Below are positions 35,828-56,025 of a stretch of 64,000 nt of DNA, one piece after another (position 1 is the stretch's first letter; the number at the start of each line of letters is the position of its first letter). The translations under genes were made by a program, and so were the position numbers. The stretch spans positions 2,604,001 to 2,668,000 of the forward strand of contig NC_019673.1 in NCBI RefSeq assembly GCF_000328705.1. Direction: 5' to 3'. This stretch comes from Saccharothrix espanaensis DSM 44229 (GTDB taxonomy: Bacteria; Actinomycetota; Actinomycetes; Mycobacteriales; Pseudonocardiaceae). Under the pieces are notes generated by a model. It worked only from the letters and a program-made list of their open reading frames with translations. It searched no databases and was not told where the DNA came from.

Positions 35828-36168
35828 CTCCGCTCCGTTCTCCCGAGGACAAGGCGAGCGACGTTATCGTGAGAAATACTCCCCGCGGTACAGCCGATCG
35901 GGTTTCCCGACGTGAATTTAACCGAATCGGCGGGCAAAATCCGGTCGGCCATGGAATGTTTGAATTCTCATTAACAGCACCGGTGTGAAGGTGGGGCCCG
36001 CGCGATCGTCCCACCGGCACTGGGACGTCTGGTCGCTTCCCGGTACCCGAACCGCCGCATAGCCTCGAGACGTGGGGTGATGTGTGGCACACCCCGCGCG
36101 GTCGCGGCCCCGCTCCCTTGCCGCTGGTGGGTGTCGGCGACCGTTCCCTGCGAAGAACGGACACGAGT
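35828..36168. other. AT-richer divergent promoter region
   Basis: This 341-nt stretch lies between the HTH gene and the first S8 protease. A lower-GC patch (about 35855-35975) includes AATTTAACCGAA and TTGAATTCTCATTAACAG, unlike the surrounding sequence. It probably carries the promoters in both directions. No gene is seen; a start at 36082 in the protease frame would add a non-signal N-terminus and is rejected. Confidence 0.5.
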
Positions 36169-37335
<1,167 letters not shown>

Positions 37336-37353
37336 ACCTCCCTGTCACCCGGG

Positions 37354-37386
37354 AACCCCGGCGCGCAACCCGCGCCGGGGTTTTCC
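37354..37386 (+). terminator. Rho-independent terminator after protease 1
   Basis: A perfect 12-bp stem (AACCCCGGCGCG with CGCGCCGGGGTT) around loop CAACC is followed by TT and CCCC. It lies 19 nt after the stop and separates the first and second protease genes. Confidence 0.85.
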
Positions 37387-37409
37387 CCATCCCTGCAAAG
37401 GAAACATCC

Positions 37410-38597
37410 ATGCGCACACAGATGAGATCGAGAGGGCTGTTACCGGGACTGGTCGGGGCGGTGCTGCTGCTGGGGGTGGTCGCCGGGCCCGCCTCCGGGG
37501 CTGAAGTCGTGGCGGTTCCTGGGGCTGGGGCCGAGGTTGAGGGGGTTGTGCGGAACGCCGGGTCGGCGTCGGCGGTGCCGGGTAGTTACCTGGTGAAGGT
37601 GAAGGACGTGGCGGCGCTTGGTGATGTGACGTCGCGGGTGAGTGGTGTGGATCGGGTGTTCGGTGGTTCGTACAACGGTTTTTCGGCTCGGTTGAGCGAG
37701 AAGCAGGCGCGGCGGTTGGCCGCTGATCCGGCTGTGGAGTACGTGGAGCAGGACCAGGTCGTGCGGGCGTTGACGCCGACGACCCAGAACAACGCGCCCT
37801 GGGGGCTGGACCGGATCGACCAGCGTGCACTGCCGCTGGACACGAAGTACAGCTACACGTCGACGGGCGAGCGGGTCACGGTGTACGTGATCGACACCGG
37901 GATCCGGACCACGCACCAGGAGTTCGGCGGCCGGGCGTTCCACGCGTGGGACGCGGTGGACAACGACAACGTGGCGCAGGACGACAACGGCCACGGGACG
38001 CACGTGGCGGGCATCATCGCGGGCCGGGTCTACGGCGTGGCCAAGGGCGTGTCCGTGGGGGCGGTGCGCGTGCTCAACGCCCAGGGCAGCGGGACGATCG
38101 CGGGCGTGATCGCGGGCGTGGACTGGGTGACCCGCAACGCGCGCAAGCCGGCGGTGGGGAACTTCAGCCTCGGCGGCGGGGTGTCCACCGCCCTGGACGA
38201 CGCGGTACGGGCGATGATCCGCTCCGGGGTGACGGCGTCGGTGACGGCGGGCGGCAGCGGCAGCGGCACGGTCAACACGTCGCCGGCGCGGGTGACCGAG
38301 GCGCTGGTGTCGGGATCCTCCACGCAGACGGACACGAGGGCGTCCTTCTCGAACTACGGACCGGGCGTCGACCTGTACGCGCCGGGCATCGGGATCACGG
38401 CGGCGTGGCACACCAGCGACACCGCGACCAACACGCTGAGCGGCACGTCCATGTCGACGGGCTTCGTGTCCGGAGTGGCCGTGCGGTTCCTCCAGTTCAA
38501 CCCGACCGCGACACCGGCCCAGGTGCACGCGGAACTTGTGAACCAGGCGACACCACTGCCGTGGGGGCGGCTCCTGTACTGGTCGCCCACGAGGTGA
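37410..38597 (+). CDS. S8 protease paralogue 2, oxyanion Asn replaced
   Basis: A 395-residue secreted S8 protein. The triad Asp162, His195 and Ser347 is kept, but the oxyanion Asn is Gly (TAGG at 269-272 region, Gly282) and the Ser motif is SGTSMSTGFVSG rather than [12 protein letters not shown]. Catalysis is therefore doubtful or altered. Residues from about 55 to 133 (DNA 37571-37807) are nearly identical to protease 3. AAAGGA precedes ATG 37410; it has its own downstream hairpin. Confidence 0.9.
   Translation: MRTQMRSRGLLPGLVGAVLLLGVVAGPASGAEVVAVPGAGAEVEGVVRNAGSASAVPGSYLVKVKDVAALGDVTSRVSGVDRVFGGSYNGFSARLSEKQARRLAADPAVEYVEQDQVVRALTPTTQNNAPWGLDRIDQRALPLDTKYSYTSTGERVTVYVIDTGIRTTHQEFGGRAFHAWDAVDNDNVAQDDNGHGTHVAGIIAGRVYGVAKGVSVGAVRVLNAQGSGTIAGVIAGVDWVTRNARKPAVGNFSLGGGVSTALDDAVRAMIRSGVTASVTAGGSGSGTVNTSPARVTEALVSGSSTQTDTRASFSNYGPGVDLYAPGIGITAAWHTSDTATNTLSGTSMSTGFVSGVAVRFLQFNPTATPAQVHAELVNQATPLPWGRLLYWSPTR
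37571..37807 (+). repeat. Near-identical propeptide tract, copy in protease 2
   Basis: This 237-nt tract matches 38767-39003 except at 37676 and 37773. Outside it the two genes diverge strongly. The tract uses more T-ending codons than neighbouring genes (for example GGT, GAT, GCT). Gene conversion or a recent partial duplication is suggested. Confidence 0.85.
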
Positions 38598-38603
38598 TGT
38601 TCC

Positions 38604-38633
38604 ATCCCGGAGACGCGGTGTGGTCTCCGGGAT
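38604..38633 (+). terminator. Terminator after protease 2
   Basis: Arms ATCCCGGAGAC and GTCTCCGGGAT pair perfectly (11 bp) around an 8-nt loop, just after the protease 2 stop and before the ribosome-binding site of protease 3. Confidence 0.75.
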
Positions 38634-38662
38634 CCCTTACCCTGCTGCAAAAGGACAAGTCC

Positions 38663-39793
38663 ATGCGGAAGATCGTGACAGGCTTGGGCGTCGTAGCCCT
38701 GGCGATGGGAGCCGTGTCGACACCGGCACAGGCCGAGGGCGCGGTGCGGTACGCTGGGTCGGCGTTGGCGGTGCCGGGTAGTTACCTGGTGAAGGTGAAG
38801 GACGTGGCGGCGCTTGGTGATGTGACGTCGCGGGTGAGTGGTGTGGATCGGGTGTTCGGTGGTTCGTACAAGGGTTTTTCGGCTCGGTTGAGCGAGAAGC
38901 AGGCGCGGCGGTTGGCCGCTGATCCGGCTGTGGAGTACGTGGAGCAGGACCAGGTCGTGCGGGCGTTGGCGCCGACGACCCAGAACAACGCGCCCTGGGG
39001 GCTTGATCGGATCGACCAGCGGAAGTTGCCGCTGGACACGAAGTACAGCTACACGACGAACGGGCGCGGCACGACGGCGTACGTGATCGACACCGGAATC
39101 CGGGTCACGCACCAGGAGTTCGGCGACCGGGCGTGCAACGGCTGGGACGCGGTGGACAACGACAACGTGGCCCAGGACGACAACGGTCACGGCACGCACG
39201 TGGCGGGTCTGGTCGCGGGCAAGACGTACGGGGTCGCGAAGCTGGCCAAGGTGTGTGGCGTGCGGGTGCTCGACGGCTCCGGCAGCGGCACGACGGCGGG
39301 CGTCGTCGCGGGCATCGACTGGGTGGCGCGCAATGCGGTGAAGCCGGCGGTGGCGAACCTGAGCCTCGGCGGCGGGGCGTCCACGGCGATGGACGACGCG
39401 GTGCTCGCGTTGATCAAGTCCGGCGTCACGGCGTCGGTGACGGCGGGCGGCAGCAACGCGGACGCGATCAACTACTCGCCGGCACGGGTGGGCGAGGCGA
39501 TCACGTCCGGGTCGTCGACGAACACGGACACGAAGACGACGTTCTCCAACTACGGCAAGGTAGTGGACGTGTACGCGCCGGGGCAGAACATCATCTCGGC
39601 GTGGCACACCAGCGACACGGCGACCAACACGATCAGCGGCACGTCGATGTCGACGGGGTTCGTGTCGGGCGTGGCGCTGAGGTACTTGCAGCGCAACGTG
39701 AAGGCGACCCCGGCTCAGGTGCACGCCGAGATCGTGAAGGCGGCTACGCCGTTGTCGTTCGGTCCATTGCTGTACTGGTCTCCGTCGCGGTAA
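38663..39793 (+). CDS. S8 protease paralogue 3, oxyanion Asn replaced
   Basis: A 376-residue secreted S8 protein with a signal peptide ending near residue 24 and I9 propeptide. Asp143, His176 and Ser328 are kept; the oxyanion Asn is replaced by Gly263 (TAGGSN) and the Ser motif is SGTSMSTGFVSG. Cys158 (RACNG) and Cys198 (KVCGV) could form a disulfide absent from the other three. A 237-nt tract in the propeptide is shared with protease 2. AAAGGA precedes ATG 38663. Confidence 0.9.
   Translation: MRKIVTGLGVVALAMGAVSTPAQAEGAVRYAGSALAVPGSYLVKVKDVAALGDVTSRVSGVDRVFGGSYKGFSARLSEKQARRLAADPAVEYVEQDQVVRALAPTTQNNAPWGLDRIDQRKLPLDTKYSYTTNGRGTTAYVIDTGIRVTHQEFGDRACNGWDAVDNDNVAQDDNGHGTHVAGLVAGKTYGVAKLAKVCGVRVLDGSGSGTTAGVVAGIDWVARNAVKPAVANLSLGGGASTAMDDAVLALIKSGVTASVTAGGSNADAINYSPARVGEAITSGSSTNTDTKTTFSNYGKVVDVYAPGQNIISAWHTSDTATNTISGTSMSTGFVSGVALRYLQRNVKATPAQVHAEIVKAATPLSFGPLLYWSPSR
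38767..39003 (+). repeat. Near-identical propeptide tract, copy in protease 3
   Basis: Second copy of the 237-nt tract (partner 37571-37807; two mismatches). It covers the inhibitory propeptide and the start of the mature domain, but not the catalytic residues. Confidence 0.85.
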
Positions 39794-39897
39794 TGCGGGT
39801 CTGCCGGGGGTGAGGGCTGGAGCTGCGGGGTGAGGGCGAGGGCTGAGGGTGAGGCTGAAAGCGAGGGCTGAAAGCGAGGGCTGAGGGGCGAGGGGAG

Positions 39898-40338
39898 TTA
39901 GTGCGGGAGGGCGAGGTCGTGTTTCATGACGATCTCGTCCTCTTGCATTTCGCCGGTCTCGGTGAAGCCGAAGGCCTTGTAGAGGCCGTGGGCCACGGCG
40001 TTGTCGGGGACGAGGCTGAGGGTGAGCTGGGCGCGCTGCTCGGAGCGGGCGATGTCGGCGATGGCGGCCAGGGCCTTGCGTCCCAGGCCGCGGCTCTGGG
40101 CTCTCCGGTCGATCATGAAGCGGACGATGTGCAGGTCGTCCGGGTACTGCCGGTAGAGGAGGGTGAACCCCACGAGGTCGTCGCCCGAGTACATCGCCAG
40201 CGGTTCCATGTGGGGCCGGTGGATCCACGCGTCGGCGATGGACTTCAGGTTGGTGGCCACGAAGTTGCGTTGCTCCTCGTGCACTTCCAGGGCGACGACG
40301 GCGCGGTAGTTGTCCTCGGTGACGGGTTCCAATCGCAT
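39898..40338 (-). CDS. GNAT N-acetyltransferase, polyamine acetyltransferase-like
   Basis: A 146-residue GNAT enzyme. RLEPVTEDNYRAVVALEV, QRNFVATNLKSIADAW, IVRFMIDRRAQSRGLGRKAL (acetyl-CoA loop) and GLYKAFGFTETG resemble BltD/PaiA-type diamine acetyltransferases, but the substrate is unproven. It lies on the opposite strand within the S8 protease cluster and interrupts it. ATG 40338 is used; a TTG at 40347 would add three residues. Confidence 0.85.
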   Translation of the reverse strand: MRLEPVTEDNYRAVVALEVHEEQRNFVATNLKSIADAWIHRPHMEPLAMYSGDDLVGFTLLYRQYPDDLHIVRFMIDRRAQSRGLGRKALAAIADIARSEQRAQLTLSLVPDNAVAHGLYKAFGFTETGEMQEDEIVMKHDLALPH

Positions 40339-40578
40339 GTCGGGCAAGGTAGCGCCTGGGTTTTACCAGGTCTCCCGAAACTCGGGAAAGCGCTGGTCAC
40401 GGGACTTCTTCACGCCGCGTTACAACTGGCAATCTTTCACTCTTGGCTGGTGAGGGGTCCGGCTGTTTGAGTTGGTGACTGTCAGCGAGGGCAAGGTGGC
40501 CCAGCGTCACACCCGCACCCTGCGAGTTCGTCCCGGTGGGTGGGCGCACAGGTCATCGCTTCGAGAACGGAAGACTTG

Positions 40579-41766
40579 ATGCGACAGTCACGACAGACCC
40601 GGTTCCTGGCCGGCTTCGGCGCGGTGGCGATCACCGCCGCGGCGTCCACCCTGTTGGCTTCCCCCGCCCAGGCCGCCGAAGGGGAGATCCGCGCCGCGGA
40701 CGCGGCCGAGAAGGTGCACGGCAGCTTCATCGTGAAGCTGAAGGAGGGCTCGGCTGACTCCGCCGCGTCGTTGGCCGCCCGCTACGGCGGCAAGGTCGAC
40801 CGCGTGTTCAGCAAGGCCCTCAACGGGTTCACCGTGTCGCTGCCGGAGTCGGCGGCGAAGCGCCTGGCGGCCAACCCGGCCGTCGAGTACGTCGAGCAGG
40901 ACCAGGTGTTCCACGTCGAGGCCACGCAGACCAACCCGCCGTCGTGGGGGCTGGACCGGATCGACCAGAAGAACCTGCCGCTGGACTCGAAGTACAGCTA
41001 CACGTCGACCGGCACCGGCGTGAACGTCTACGTCGTGGACACGGGTGTGCGGATCAGCCACTCGACGTTCGGCGGCCGGGCCCGCAACGGGTTCGACGCG
41101 GTCGACAACGACAACGTGGCGCAGGACGGCCACGGCCACGGCACGCACGTGGCGGGCACCGTCGCGGGCAGCCAGTACGGCGTCGCGAAGGGCGCGACGA
41201 TCTACGGCGTGCGGGTGCTGGACAACGCCGGCAGCGGCACCACGGCGGGTGTCGTCGCGGGCATCGACTGGGTGACCAAGAACCACGTCAAGCCGGCGGT
41301 GGCGAACCTGAGCCTCGGCGGCGGCGCGTCGACCACGATCGACAGCGCGGTGCGCAAGTCGATCCAGGCCGGCGTCACGTACGCGATCGCGGCGGGCAAC
41401 AGCAACACCAACGCGGGCAGCACCTCGCCGGCTCGGGTCACCGAGGCGATCACGGTCGGTGCGACGGAGAAGAACGACGCGCGGGCCAGCTACTCGAACT
41501 ACGGCTCGGTGCTGGACATCTTCGCGCCGGGGTCGGGCATCACGTCGTCGTGGAACACCTCGGACTCGGCCACGAACACCATTTCGGGCACCTCGATGGC
41601 CACGCCGCACGTTGCGGGCGCGGCGGCGCGGTACCTCCAGAACAACCGCGCGGCGACGCCGGCGCAGGTCGCGTCCTACCTGGTCGCCCAGTCCACGGCG
41701 GGCAAGGTGACCAGCCCGGGGTCGGGGTCGCCGAACCGGCTGCTCTACCTGGCGCCTGGCGCCTGA
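40579..41766 (+). CDS. S8 (subtilisin-like) secreted serine protease 4
   Basis: A 395-residue preproenzyme with signal peptide to about residue 32 (SPAQA|AEG) and I9 propeptide. Asp154, His187, Asn274 (AAGNSN) and Ser338 ([12 protein letters not shown]) form a complete catalytic site. It is closer to protease 1 than to 2 and 3. ATG 40579 has GGAAG just upstream and starts a proper signal peptide. A terminator hairpin follows. Confidence 0.95.
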
Positions 41767-42387: not shown

Positions 42388-42561
42388 AGCGGCGCTCGCC
42401 GCTGGGCAGGCCGCCGGGGGAGGAAGGGCACGCCGTGTTCTCCCCGTATGGCCTGGTCGGGAGACAACCACCCTTGAGCAGGTAGTGCAAGCGGAAAGCG
42501 TGCTTGCACTACCTGCTCAAGCGCGGTTCGCTGCGCGCAGGCCATACGGGGAGAACACGGC
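42388..42561. repeat. 174-bp palindromic dispersed element, copy A
   Basis: This element occurs again, inverted, at 55614-55787 with one mismatch. Its outer arms (24 nt, GCCGTGTTCTCCCCGTATGG-type) are perfect complements; an inner 19-bp stem (TTGAGCAGGTAGTGCAAGC) lies within. One end carries a ~45-nt tail with its own hairpin (AGCGGCGCTCGCCGCT). No target-site duplication is visible. It is a cruciform- or hairpin-forming REP/MITE-like element in an intergenic site. Confidence 0.85.
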
Positions 42562-42592: not shown

Positions 42593-43264
42593 TTAGCGCT
42601 CTTGTACCTTTTTGAACTTCAGTTGTTTTACGGGTTTTCCGTCGGTTTTGCTGGTTACCGGGGTGACGCCGGCGGTTGCGACCTGGTCGATGATGTCCAG
42701 GCCCTTCGTGACCTTGCCGATGATCGGGTAGTCCGGGGGGAATTCGCTGTCCTTGTAGACGATGAAGAACTGGCTGCCGTTGGTGCCCGCCGTCGCCCTG
42801 TTGGCCATGCCGATCACGCCGCGTTCGTAGCCGCCGGTTCGGGCTTCGGGGTCGTCGTAGCGGTAGCCGGGGCCGCCCAGGCCGCTCGTGGTGGGGTCGC
42901 CGCACTGGACGATCCAGATGCCCTCCGTCACCAGGCGGTGGCAGGCGTTGCCGTCGTAGAGGCGCTTCTCGACCAGGTGCCGGAAGCTGTGCACGGAGCA
43001 CGGCGCGGAGGCGGCGTCGAGGGTGAACTCCAGGTCGCCGAGGGCGGTGTCCAGGCGCATCACGACCTCGCCGCCGGACGGGACGTCCTTGCCCGACGGG
43101 GGTTCGACGGCCTTGTTGTTCGCCTCTTCGGACGTGTCCACGTAGGTGCACTCGACCGTGGGCACCTCCGGCAGCGGGCCCGCCACGGGGGTGCCCTGGA
43201 TCGTGTAGGCGCAGCCGCTGCCCAGCAGGAGGAACACGGCGCTCACCAGCAGGCGTCTGACCAC
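42593..43264 (-). CDS. Cyclophilin-type peptidyl-prolyl isomerase lipoprotein
   Basis: A 223-residue exported cyclophilin. The signal peptide ends in lipobox LLLGSGC; the mature domain has [37 protein letters not shown] and PIIGKV. It resembles the membrane-anchored cyclophilin at 9828 but is lipidated instead. GTG start at 43264. It lies near aspS, as the other does near hisS, both in the core order of this genome region. Confidence 0.88.
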   Translation of the reverse strand: MVRRLLVSAVFLLLGSGCAYTIQGTPVAGPLPEVPTVECTYVDTSEEANNKAVEPPSGKDVPSGGEVVMRLDTALGDLEFTLDAASAPCSVHSFRHLVEKRLYDGNACHRLVTEGIWIVQCGDPTTSGLGGPGYRYDDPEARTGGYERGVIGMANRATAGTNGSQFFIVYKDSEFPPDYPIIGKVTKGLDIIDQVATAGVTPVTSKTDGKPVKQLKFKKVQER

Positions 43265-53331: not shown

Positions 53332-54807
53332 TCAGCCGGGCAGGCGCACCACGAACCGGGTACGTCCAGGCCGGCTCTCCACGGAAACTTCCCCTTCATG
53401 CGCGGCCACAACAGCCGCCACGATCGACAACCCCAACCCAGTGCTGCCCGCAGCACGAGACCGGGAAGTGTCCCCACGCGAGAACCGCTCGAACACCTCC
53501 CCCTGAAGACCGTCAGGAATCCCAGGCCCATCATCCGACACCACCATCACCACACAACCACCCCCGCCCCCGCCCCCGCCCCCATCCTCACCCTCACCCT
53601 CACACCGAAGCGAGGTCGTAACCGTGGTCCCCGCCGGCGTATGCACCCGCGCATTCGACAACAGATTCACCAACACCTGCTGCAACTTGTGGGCGTCCCC
53701 CGACACCGTCACCGGCTCCGGCGGCAGCTCCAACCGCCAATCGTGCTCCGGCCCGGCGATCCGGGCGTCGCTCACGCTGTCCACGACGACCCGCGACAGG
53801 TCGACGCTCTCCCGCCCCAGCGGCCGCCCGGCGTCCAACCGCGCCAACAACAGCAGGTCCTCCACCAGCGACGTCATCCGCACGGCCTCGGACTCCACCC
53901 GTCGCATGGCGTGCCCGATCTCCGGCGGGACCTCCTCCGAGGTGCGCCGCGTCAACTCCGCGTACCCGCGAATCGCGGCCAACGGCGTCCGGAGCTCGTG
54001 ACTCGCGTCGGCCACGAACTGCCGAACCCGCGTCTCACTGGCGTGGCGGGCCGACAACGCCTCGCCGACGTGGTCGAGCATCGAGTTCAACGCCAATCCC
54101 ACCTGTCCGACCTCGGTGTCGGGATTGGCATCGCCTTCGGGAACCCGTTCGGCCAACGCCACTTCCCCCTGGTGCAACGGGAGTTCCGCCACCCGGCCGG
54201 CCGTGGCCGCCACCCTCTCCAAGGGCCGCAGCGTCTTGCGGATGATCAAAGCGCCGGCCAGCGACACCGCCACCAACCCGGCCAATGCCACCCCGCCGAC
54301 GATGAACCCCATCCGGAGCACGACGGAATCCACCTCCGCCATCGGGAGCCCCGTCACCATGACGGTCCCGTCCCGCCCGCGAACCGCCATCACCCGGTGC
54401 TCGCCGAGTTCCGCGCCCAACTGGACGGTGCGCGCCGTGGCGTCCGCCGGAACCGACGCGAGCGCCCGCAACTCGCCCGCCGGCAGGTCGTCCGGCCGGT
54501 CCTTCCCGGGCTGGATCCTGGTCCCGTCCACCCCTGAGGTCCGGATGAACACCACCAACGTCCCGGGCGGGAAACCGGGCCGGTCCAACGGGTTGGGCGG
54601 AATCATGCCGGGCATCAACGGCCCGCCGCGCTCGACGCGACCGGACGCCTCCCGCAGCCGCTGGTCCAACTGGTTGATCTGGAAGTCCCGCAACGCGAAC
54701 ACGCTCACGATCCCGATACCGGCGCACACGATCGCGATCAGCACGACCTGTTCGACGATCAGCCGCGTACGCAGCGGCCAGCGCTTAGGGTGCAGGCTTG
54801 AGGACAT
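53332..54807 (-). CDS. Sensor histidine kinase
   Basis: A 491-residue HK: TM1 near 18-38, an extracytoplasmic domain, TM2 near 168-188, HAMP, HisKA with DASHELRTPLAAIRGYAEL (phospho-His), and HATPase_c with NLLSNARVHTPAG and STGLGLSIV. A nine-Gly run (GEGEDGGGGGGGGGC) is inserted in the ATP-binding domain between LRCE and VVMVV, beside a C-rich repeat tract in the DNA (about 53560-53610). It overlaps the response regulator by 23 nt. Related to MprB/TcrY-type envelope sensors by architecture. Confidence 0.93.
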   Translation of the reverse strand: MSSSLHPKRWPLRTRLIVEQVVLIAIVCAGIGIVSVFALRDFQINQLDQRLREASGRVERGGPLMPGMIPPNPLDRPGFPPGTLVVFIRTSGVDGTRIQPGKDRPDDLPAGELRALASVPADATARTVQLGAELGEHRVMAVRGRDGTVMVTGLPMAEVDSVVLRMGFIVGGVALAGLVAVSLAGALIIRKTLRPLERVAATAGRVAELPLHQGEVALAERVPEGDANPDTEVGQVGLALNSMLDHVGEALSARHASETRVRQFVADASHELRTPLAAIRGYAELTRRTSEEVPPEIGHAMRRVESEAVRMTSLVEDLLLLARLDAGRPLGRESVDLSRVVVDSVSDARIAGPEHDWRLELPPEPVTVSGDAHKLQQVLVNLLSNARVHTPAGTTVTTSLRCEGEGEDGGGGGGGGGCVVMVVSDDGPGIPDGLQGEVFERFSRGDTSRSRAAGSTGLGLSIVAAVVAAHEGEVSVESRPGRTRFVVRLPG

Positions 54808-55513
54808 AGCCCGCACCCCGCATCGTGTGGATCATCGGCGCGCGGCCGACGTCGATCTTCTTCCGCAGGTACGAGATGTAGAGCTCCACGATGTTGGCCT
54901 GCCCGCCGAAGTCGTAGCTCCACACCCGGTCCAGGATCTGCGCCTTGCTCAACACCCGCTTCGGGTTGCGCATCAGGAACCGCAACAGCTCGAACTCGGT
55001 GGCCGTCAACTCCACGGACGTCCCACCCCGCCGAACCTCGCGGGTGTCCTCGTCCAGGACCAGGTCCCCGACCACCAGCTCGGTCCCGGCGGTGGCCTCG
55101 GAAACCCCGGTGCGCCGCAACAACCCCCGCAACCGCAACACGACCTCTTCGAGGCTGAACGGCTTGGTCACGTAGTCGTCGCCCCCGGCGGTCAACCCCG
55201 CGATGCGGTCCTCGACGGCATCCTTGGCGGTCAGGAACAAGACCGGCAGCGCGGGAACCTCGGACCGCAACCGCCGAAGCACCTCCAGCCCGTCGAAGTC
55301 CGGCAGCATCACGTCCAGCACCACCACGTCGGGCCGGAACTCCCGAGCCACCCGAACCGCCGAAGTCCCGTCCAGGGCAGTGCGGACCTCCCACTTCTCC
55401 ATCCGCAGAGCCATGGACATCAACTCGGCCAAAGTGGACTCGTCATCGACCACGAGAACCCGAACCGGACTCCCATCGGCCCGCCGAAGCTCAGGAGCAG
55501 ACACCGCGCGCAT
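54785..55513 (-). CDS. OmpR-family response regulator
   Basis: A 242-residue regulator. Receiver: VRVLVVDDE, phospho-acceptor Asp in VVVLDVMLPDFDG, FLTAKDA and GGDDYVTKPF. C-terminal winged helix: ELTATEFELLRFLM and VWSYDFGGQANIVELYISYLR. It precedes the histidine kinase. ATG 55513 is used; ATG 55537 would add eight residues. The operon continues into the GT39-GT2-GT39 genes, making cell-envelope glycosylation the likely output. Confidence 0.94.
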   Translation of the reverse strand: MRAVSAPELRRADGSPVRVLVVDDESTLAELMSMALRMEKWEVRTALDGTSAVRVAREFRPDVVVLDVMLPDFDGLEVLRRLRSEVPALPVLFLTAKDAVEDRIAGLTAGGDDYVTKPFSLEEVVLRLRGLLRRTGVSEATAGTELVVGDLVLDEDTREVRRGGTSVELTATEFELLRFLMRNPKRVLSKAQILDRVWSYDFGGQANIVELYISYLRKKIDVGRAPMIHTMRGAGYVLKPAP

Positions 55514-56025
55514 ACCCCAATCGTCACAAGGCGCCATGAGCCCACCCTGTGCCGCACCTGTGTACCACCTGTGAACAAGGACGGCAGCCCACAACCACAC
55601 AAACCGCACCCTCGCCGTGTTCTCCCTGTATGGCCTGCGCGCAGCGAACCGCGCTTGAGCAGGTAGTGCAAGCACGCTTTCCGCTTGCACTACCTGCTCA
55701 AGGGTGGTTGTCTCCCGACCAGGCCATACGGGGAGAACACGGCGTGCCCTTCCTCCCCCGGCGGCCTGCCCAGCGGCGAGCGCCGCTCTTGCTCTTTCTG
55801 TGCTTTCCCCCCCACCCCCACCCGCCCGCCTCGCCCCGCCTCGCCCCGCCCACCGCGCCCCGCAGCCCCGCCCCGCCTGCCCGCCTCGCACCGCCTTGCC
55901 CGCGCATGGCGGGACAGCACAGGCGGGATGCAGCGCAGGGCCGGGCTGCGCCGCCGTCCACCCCACACAGGCACGCCCCAACAGCCACACAGCCCACGCA
56001 CAGACTCCCCGGCCACGTTGGTCGC
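55514..56025. other. Intergenic region with repeat and C-rich tract
   Basis: Besides repeat copy B, this 512-nt gap holds C-rich simple sequence (55800-55905; CCCCGCC-type) and the probable promoter region for the divergent regulator and membrane-protein genes. No gene is seen. Confidence 0.5.
55614..55787. repeat. 174-bp palindromic dispersed element, copy B
   Basis: Inverted second copy of the element at 42388-42561 (one mismatch, T at 55627 that gives a G-U pair in the outer stem). It lies upstream of the response regulator gene. The tail hairpin is at the 55770-55787 end. No target-site duplication is obvious. Confidence 0.85.

Follow-up and report, generated by a model that had tools for sequence, protein, structure and literature searches.

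The window analyzed here, the whole stretch of 64,000 nucleotides, spans C1:2604001-2668000 of the Saccharothrix espanaensis genome (G000; 9,360,653 bases in one contig) and holds a palindromic element twice, in opposite orientation. Copy 1 starts approximately 32 bp past the stop codon of a cyclophilin-type gene (42593-43264, minus strand; profile search) in a tandem setting, the gene beyond it also lying on the minus strand. Copy 2 is located between divergent genes, namely a response regulator gene (54788-55513, minus strand; profile search) and a plus-strand gene called approximately 326 bp to its right. In addition, at least three tandem subtilase genes (PF00082, profile search) occupy 36084-41766 of the window; in species without the element a similar protease gene, in reverse complement, faces the cyclophilin gene as judged by eye.

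Comparison of 42388-42561 on the plus strand with the reverse complement of 55614-55787 agreed with the earlier note in that exactly 1 of 174 bases is unlike. The difference lies at element position 161 (G at 42548 versus A); in copy 2 it sits at 55627, in the 5' arm of the outer stem, and gives a U-G pair on the putative RNA strand. The same note had described 24-nt outer arms and a separate hairpin, both of which were recovered, together with a 19-bp inner stem, which measured 20 bp in copy 1, with 6 further pairs below a mismatch. Its observation that both copies lack a visible target-site duplication and have unrelated surroundings also held by eye. Predicted RNA folds of copy 1 reached -125.3 kcal/mol on the minus strand (z = -12.8) and -120.6 kcal/mol on the plus strand (z = -10.1), values equalled by none of 200 shuffles in either case. 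The features of the two copies are as follows, with arms named in RNA sense.

42388..42561, minus strand: copy 1, whole element; putative RNA strand minus, reading 42561 to 42388
42538..42561, minus strand: copy 1, outer stem 5' arm
42529..42537, minus strand: copy 1, mini-hairpin 1, CGC-GCA-GCG (CCC-GCA-GGG or GGC-GCA-GCC in other copies)
42502..42522, minus strand: copy 1, inner stem 5' arm; the middle 11 bp are hypervariable among copies
42493..42501, minus strand: copy 1, apical loop; one orientation in all 129 readable distinct cores
42472..42492, minus strand: copy 1, inner stem 3' arm
42456..42465, minus strand: copy 1, mini-hairpin 2, GTC..GAC (GCC..GGC in other copies)
42432..42455, minus strand: copy 1, outer stem 3' arm
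42404..42422, minus strand: copy 1, arm-mimic segment, recognized by inspection
42388..42403, minus strand: copy 1, head hairpin; the T-rich foot of the family average is poor here
55614..55787, plus strand: copy 2, whole element; putative RNA strand plus, reading toward 55787
55615..55637, plus strand: copy 2, outer stem 5' arm
55653..55673, plus strand: copy 2, inner stem 5' arm
55683..55703, plus strand: copy 2, inner stem 3' arm
55720..55743, plus strand: copy 2, outer stem 3' arm
55753..55771, plus strand: copy 2, arm-mimic segment
55772..55787, plus strand: copy 2, head hairpin, with a T-rich stretch next to it

A structured repeat family in the genome and in part of the genus

The pair is part of a family spread across the genome and part of the genus, which extends the view taken in the earlier note. 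The search of the whole genome and of relatives proposed there as a check placed the repeat at a minimum of 39 distinct sites in G000: BLAST with the element gave at least 74 matches (40 of 115 first-look candidates scored), most palindromes matching on both strands, and a covariance model gave at least 78 (150 of 10,067 candidates scored) at the same 39 places. This number is a lower bound because some places are cut by insertion sequences. The presence of 39 places, some of them with partial copies, in a one-contig genome rules out that both copies are remnants of one larger duplicated gene or an assembly artefact. The window copy was matched by BLAST in 11 of 25 Saccharothrix genomes, G000 counted; the match in G012 is a single weak stretch, and those matches in G024 that were read are partial.

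From a part of the listed matches we took 40 loci of G000, with an overlap between L024 and L033, and 86 loci from other genomes. Six queries against these loci resulted in 175 hits, of which 151 near-complete elements were retained and the end-cut ones dropped; both outer arms were obtained from 149 elements, L005 and L113 being skipped. The elements fall into two main end classes, A and B, distinguished by their outer arms and head, and by inspection the arm-mimic segment resembles the 5' outer arm and varies along with it between the classes. The G000 loci carry single elements. Head-to-head paired units numbered 31, with 22 in G021 (nearly all loci read there) and 9 in G003 (9 of 17 loci read); their halves are separated by tens of bases, and the spacer resembles that of other copies. 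Among the 32 of 33 G000 copies that were readable we found 18 distinct variable segments, the commonest of which occurs in both end classes (3 A, 4 B), so that stems and ends assort like mosaics.

The covariance model also matched other genera (49 of 249 genomes, 13 of 46 genera). Upon re-reading 25 model loci, a GGCC-arm motif (at most 2 changes per arm) was present in 10, comprising 4 in Saccharothrix (two of them weak), 5 of 6 in genus g27 and 1 weak case in g17, and was not present in 15; since the model is weak in sequence and these 15 lack the motif, single model hits in other genera are not claimed for the family. In genus g8 (L219 in G208, L221 in G187) the model hit each genome several times, in very long hairpins whose outer arms are unrelated; the apical part of L219 (CAAGCGAAAAGCGTGCTTG) is identical to that of the Saccharothrix family, and these hairpins are perhaps a distant branch of it. 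A divergent copy within G000 (L040, C1:8417480-8417612) has an enlarged apical part carrying GTCAAGGGG/CCCCTTGAC and resembles the form in G134 (L224). Searches of a plasmid collection and a phage collection for carriage of the element returned zero matches. Rfam gave 0 matches in the window; its matches in five loci at E <= 0.5 were two tRNAs that lie outside the element and three weak microRNA hits that stayed under the gathering threshold.

The predicted fold of the element is a four-way junction in which two mini-hairpins and an inner stem branch from an outer stem of 22-24 bp; the separate head hairpin, which usually has a U-rich foot, comes next. For the consensus, 132 distinct cores were clustered into 57 representatives, and 56 were analyzed after omission of one over-long core. 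Among 50 consensus pairs, 34 were changed on both sides. The inner stem is hypervariable in sequence, yet almost always paired: across its 11 variable pairs 99.5% of 611 cells were paired, with 232 cells changed on both sides, 3 on one side and 3 unpaired. The outer stem (22 pairs) was paired in 98.3% of 1228 cells, with 107 both-sided, 35 one-sided and 21 unpaired, and the mini-hairpins (5 pairs) in 98.9% of 268 cells, with 39 both-sided. Paired cells, both-sided cells and covariation score lay above 500 of 500 shuffles and above every slid version for all three stem sets, a contrast that is in part expected, given that the structure was built from these very sequences and that they share descent. 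For neither the inner stem (133 and 16 of 500) nor the mini-hairpins (417 and 417 of 500) did the number of pairs with two-sided changes or of further pair types clearly surpass the shuffles. The rarity of one-sided changes in the inner stem, as opposed to their frequency in the outer stem, is independent of the caveat of relatedness and derivation.

That the two arms of the inner stem change together almost without intermediates suggests that, besides selection for pairing, sequence may be copied from arm to arm, as by replication template switching, or that whole hairpins may spread between copies. Passages of PMC8794818 propose that replication template switching creates and maintains RNA hairpins, and the joint changes seen here, several bases at once with pairing kept, are like those hairpins. 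The present case differs in being a multicopy repeat, in which the spread of whole hairpins would leave the same footprint, and in having no inverted loops: an inverted apical loop occurred in 0 of 129 readable cores (of 132 distinct), so that the inversion which template switching can leave behind is missing. This lends template switching no support, but selection on the loop could be the reason. The assortment of stems over end classes indicates that some exchange between elements occurs.

Two other ideas about the variable stem were rejected. A role as guide or target was not borne out, as exact matches to the 16-mer of the window copies are confined to elements (16 matches in 8 elements), and with up to 2 mismatches there were 28 and 27 matches per strand, elements counted, compared to 26 and 38 for a reversed control. 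Likewise, the idea that the halves of a pair are kept unlike to avoid a giant palindrome was not supported in G021 (22 units; p = 0.04 for cores, 0.33 for stems) or in G003 (9 units; p = 0.5 and 0.64).

Strand marks, gene neighborhood and a putative terminator role

Within the 20 outer-stem positions nearest the junction, counted over 60 distinct outer-arm pairs and uncorrected for shared descent, G-U wobbles were found on the strand reading toward the head in 46 cells and on the other strand in 6, with 10 true mismatches; a first count, which included conserved positions and repeated copies, had given 182 versus 137. On the toward-head strand, T makes up 73% of the bin at the head hairpin's foot (135 distinct heads), 35% and 30% of the next two bins, and 9-19% of those beyond (-80 to -21). 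The wobble bias, the T-rich foot and the constant orientation of the loop together favor an RNA with the sense of the toward-head strand and a terminator-like end at the head, although the outer-stem bias could partly be a transcription-linked mutation bias. As in intrinsic terminators, a GC-rich hairpin followed by a U-run characterizes the family, with window copy 1 itself poor in this respect.

The same marks bear on the idea that the element is a site acting at the DNA level, where a protein such as gyrase, a nucleoid protein or a recombinase would bind a cruciform or single-strand hairpin at places at which convergent transcription accumulates supercoils. The near-perfect palindromy of the DNA, the convergent location described below and an inner stem nearly free of G-U with a weak strand bias (18 versus 12 wobble cells in 87 distinct arm pairs) would suit such a site. 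However, the outer-stem wobbles favor one strand 46 to 6, the loop is constant in orientation in 129 of 129 readable cores, the T-rich foot is one-sided and the middle of the inner stem offers no conserved sequence for binding; we therefore regard a DNA-level site as unlikely.

Gene neighbors were taken from our own simple GC-based gene caller, and 2 of 125 rows without a neighbor on one side were dropped. Paired units lie between convergent genes in 21 of 30 cases, with 9 tandem and 0 divergent, and single elements in 52 of 93, with 33 tandem and 8 divergent (46, 32 and 7 of 85 after removal of seven loci with an insertion sequence gene as neighbor). In the two genomes that serve as background, convergent gene pairs amount to 14-16% (37 of 263 in G000 and 12 of 75 in G021). 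Location past gene stops holds for most elements and not for all: the tandem singles show no strand preference (15 with the neighbor reading into the RNA strand, 18 opposite), and the 7 divergent singles among 85 are copy 2 and six others, one of them the counterpart of copy 2 in G011. A search of the 1.5-kb flanks of the response regulator gene in 25 genomes found the element at this site in G000, G011 and G021. Two divergent genes have no end between them that would call for a terminator, so that copy 2 does not fit a simple one and argues more clearly than any other case against a plain terminator.

The site of copy 1 in relatives carries paired units in G021 and G003 and a short remnant in G001. 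In all 8 element-free orthologs scanned at this site, a hairpin of -26 to -48 kcal/mol lies no more than 160 nt past the stop, and a ninth, in G007, looks alike by eye. Furthermore, in convergent settings the flanks between stop and element had a median best hairpin of -17.6 kcal/mol (92 flanks, all genomes read), compared to -30.7 kcal/mol in element-free convergent gaps (23 gaps, G000 and G021; p = 0.0016), and hairpins below -20 kcal/mol occurred in 35 of the 92 flanks as opposed to 16 of the 23 gaps. A terminator role rests chiefly on the plain hairpins at element-free copy 1 sites and the weaker hairpins in element flanks. A mixed picture emerged when swapped terminators were looked for at dapC and at a tetR gene. 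In several species without the Saccharothrix element at dapC, a palindrome with TTCAAC...GTTGAA-like ends follows that gene (L333, L334, L336, L337, L339, L340).

These data point to the following putative course of events. A transcript entering from the outer end would fold into the four-way junction and next take in the head hairpin and its U-rich foot, the most likely point of termination. Where elements are paired, the two facing units would serve a pair of convergent genes, and an element could replace the plain terminator hairpin of relatives. The inner stem would have to pair and would need no fixed sequence. Counted against this terminator reading are the poor U-run of copy 1, the divergent singles, the tandem singles without strand preference, the weak strand bias of the inner stem, the G-T on the other strand at the base beside the loop in 65 of 87 inner-stem arm pairs, and a sequence block that faces the opposite way.

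This TTGTCGGTG-N8-GATAAT-like block occurs in 10 of 38 G000 element loci (L009, L016, L017, L019, L022, L023, L027, L028, L029 and L031), 86-164 bp upstream of the head and always pointing into it, and hence faces the strand opposite to the one marked by wobbles. The pattern, chosen after the block had been seen, had 1 match in 319 kb of background with both strands read; in the whole genome it was found at 10 places, 8 of them next to an element, one next to an interrupted element (L387) and one with no element beside it (L392). The block resembles what we take to be the PafBC DNA-damage motif. Its frequency in G000 loci relative to background would fit a regulatory or DNA-damage-inducible non-coding RNA family that is expressed, at least partly, from a PafBC-type promoter upstream of the head in some copies. 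We consider such a family very improbable, as the element loci of other genomes yielded one match only, differently oriented, the block faces away from the wobble-marked strand, no target was seen and the 16-mer of the window copies matches exactly in elements only.

Concerted change, probable spread and relation to known repeats

Many loci of different species are one site, as judged by flanking sequence. From these we picked 28 same-site locus pairs, some matched on one flank only and some plausible ones omitted, and scored 27. Mean identity was 0.827 for same-site pairs, 0.874 for copies of the same genome (best copy 0.971) and 0.808 for copies of the other species at other sites (best copy 0.880). 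The best same-genome copy surpassed the same-site copy in 26 of 27 cases, and some other-site copy of the other species equalled or surpassed it in 26 of 27 as well; the means carry more weight than these contests, because the best of many is favored. Taken together, the identities suggest that sites are old or repeatedly chosen and that sequences are replaced within genomes. Copies may persist at their sites through speciation and be overwritten by other copies of their own genome, resulting in concerted evolution.

Similarity in G000 was independent of distance (32 copies, 496 pairs, Spearman 0.04; permutation p = 0.24 for near pairs), so local duplication or distance-dependent conversion is not supported. 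The earlier note's suggestion of recent spread or conversion is strengthened by five 126-nt cores that are identical though 0.09 to 3.15 Mb apart. A stretch of G000, C1:3.51-6.79 Mb (35% of the genome), holds none of the 39 places; the chance that uniformly placed copies miss this stretch, which was chosen after the fact, is approximately 5e-8. A clustering of core genes around oriC, reported in the genome paper of S. espanaensis (PMC3469384), may be the reason for the empty stretch.

Of the REP-like, MITE-like or mobilized RNA element envisaged in the earlier note, the REP-like dispersed palindromes and the RNA-level structure were borne out, and the unseen transposase with matching ends was not. 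No autonomous copy was found among the loci read, which have no internal gene apart from inserted insertion sequences, and no target-site duplication was visible by eye around G000 copies and block edges. The Y1/RAYT family (PF01797) was not found in G000 nor in 8 of the 11 BLAST-positive genomes; it is present in 5 of 25 genus genomes, 3 of which are BLAST-positive. Membership in a RAYT-driven REP family is accordingly rejected, as G000 has no Y1 (RAYT-type) transposase. IS30-family elements sit at the foot of the inner stem in L033/L304, L037, L038/L305 and L039/L306 of G000 and in L106/L307 of G021; the assignment is by profile search (NF033563) for L033, which also shows a 3-bp CAC repeat. 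The stretches read from L038 and L039 are identical, and the two may represent a single duplicated event. A second type of insertion breaks the outer arm in L034, L035 and L387 of G000, the ends in L034 reading TTAACGGCATTGCCG.

These observations bear on the possibility of a selfish palindrome of the REP or MITE type, which would spread, persist chiefly between convergent genes because no promoter is harmed there, and end transcription only by accident. Similarity without dependence on distance, the five identical far-apart cores, the likeness of spacers between copies and a co-travelling block whose left edge is sharp are all as such a palindrome would leave them; moreover, PMC1525189 describes REPs as common between convergent genes and as targets of insertion sequences, and IS30-family insertions occur here too. 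On the other hand, the loci read hold no transposase or autonomous copy, most of the BLAST-positive genomes lack Y1/RAYT, several species share sites, element flanks have fewer strong hairpins than element-free gaps, and the strand-biased wobbles of the outer stem and the T-rich foot indicate use as RNA. On balance this explanation seems rather doubtful.

The likeness to REP, BIME and REPIN sequences lies in dispersed intergenic palindromes, enrichment between convergent genes, insertion sequence targeting and inverted pairing into composite units, of which the 31 head-to-head units of G021 and G003 are the instance here. REPs and REPINs are described as palindromes of 20-40 bp with a GTAG/CGTC tag in the relevant part of PMC3733652, whereas the element consists of a 126-nt core plus head, with a four-way junction and a hypervariable but paired inner stem, and its sites are common to several species and change in concert. 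Since it differs in size and architecture, and G000 lacks a RAYT-family gene, we keep it outside the REP family. With MITEs it shares short length, non-coding nature, inverted arms and many copies; it differs in its strong internal covariation; moreover, no target-site duplication was visible by eye, and the loci read contained neither a related transposase nor an autonomous element. Like intrinsic or bidirectional terminators, it has a hairpin with a T-rich foot a few tens of bases past many stop codons, and copy 1 stands where relatives have a plain hairpin. Its role in termination is putative, and unlike these terminators it is far larger, forms a repeated family with shared sequence and end classes, and is more alike within a genome than across species at one site.

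Among the papers listed by the literature searches, none dealt with this repeat. In the accessible portion of the S. espanaensis genome paper (PMC3469384) the words repeat, palindrom and terminator occur 0 times, and in that of a recent REP survey (PMC12306157) the word Saccharothrix is absent, the passage on actinomycetes listing three species of other genera. Relative to the earlier note, the present analysis adds the sites common to several species, the convergent setting, the plain hairpin of relatives at copy 1, the head-to-head pairing and the hypervariable stem that is almost always paired.

We conclude that the element is an interspersed palindromic repeat whose role is probably that of a terminator. 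As a whole, the reading that it is a dispersed, structured, terminator-like 3'-UTR repeat of Saccharothrix, evolving in concert and with an inner stem bound to pair, receives a probability of roughly 0.6 from us. A more specific version, in which a spreading terminator supplants native ones, is overwritten within genomes and has its inner stem rewritten in both arms together by template switching, is put forward tentatively and with considerable doubt.

If the broader reading is true, terminators can be dispersed, homogenized repeats and not only hairpins that evolved locally. The family offers dozens of parallel copies per species in several species, with one stem that is free in sequence yet bound to pair, and if the reading holds, it would become directly testable in bacteria how long RNA stems can evolve without passing through broken intermediates. 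Should the spreading-terminator version also prove true, the family would be a natural record of the evolution of a paired stem without unpaired intermediates.
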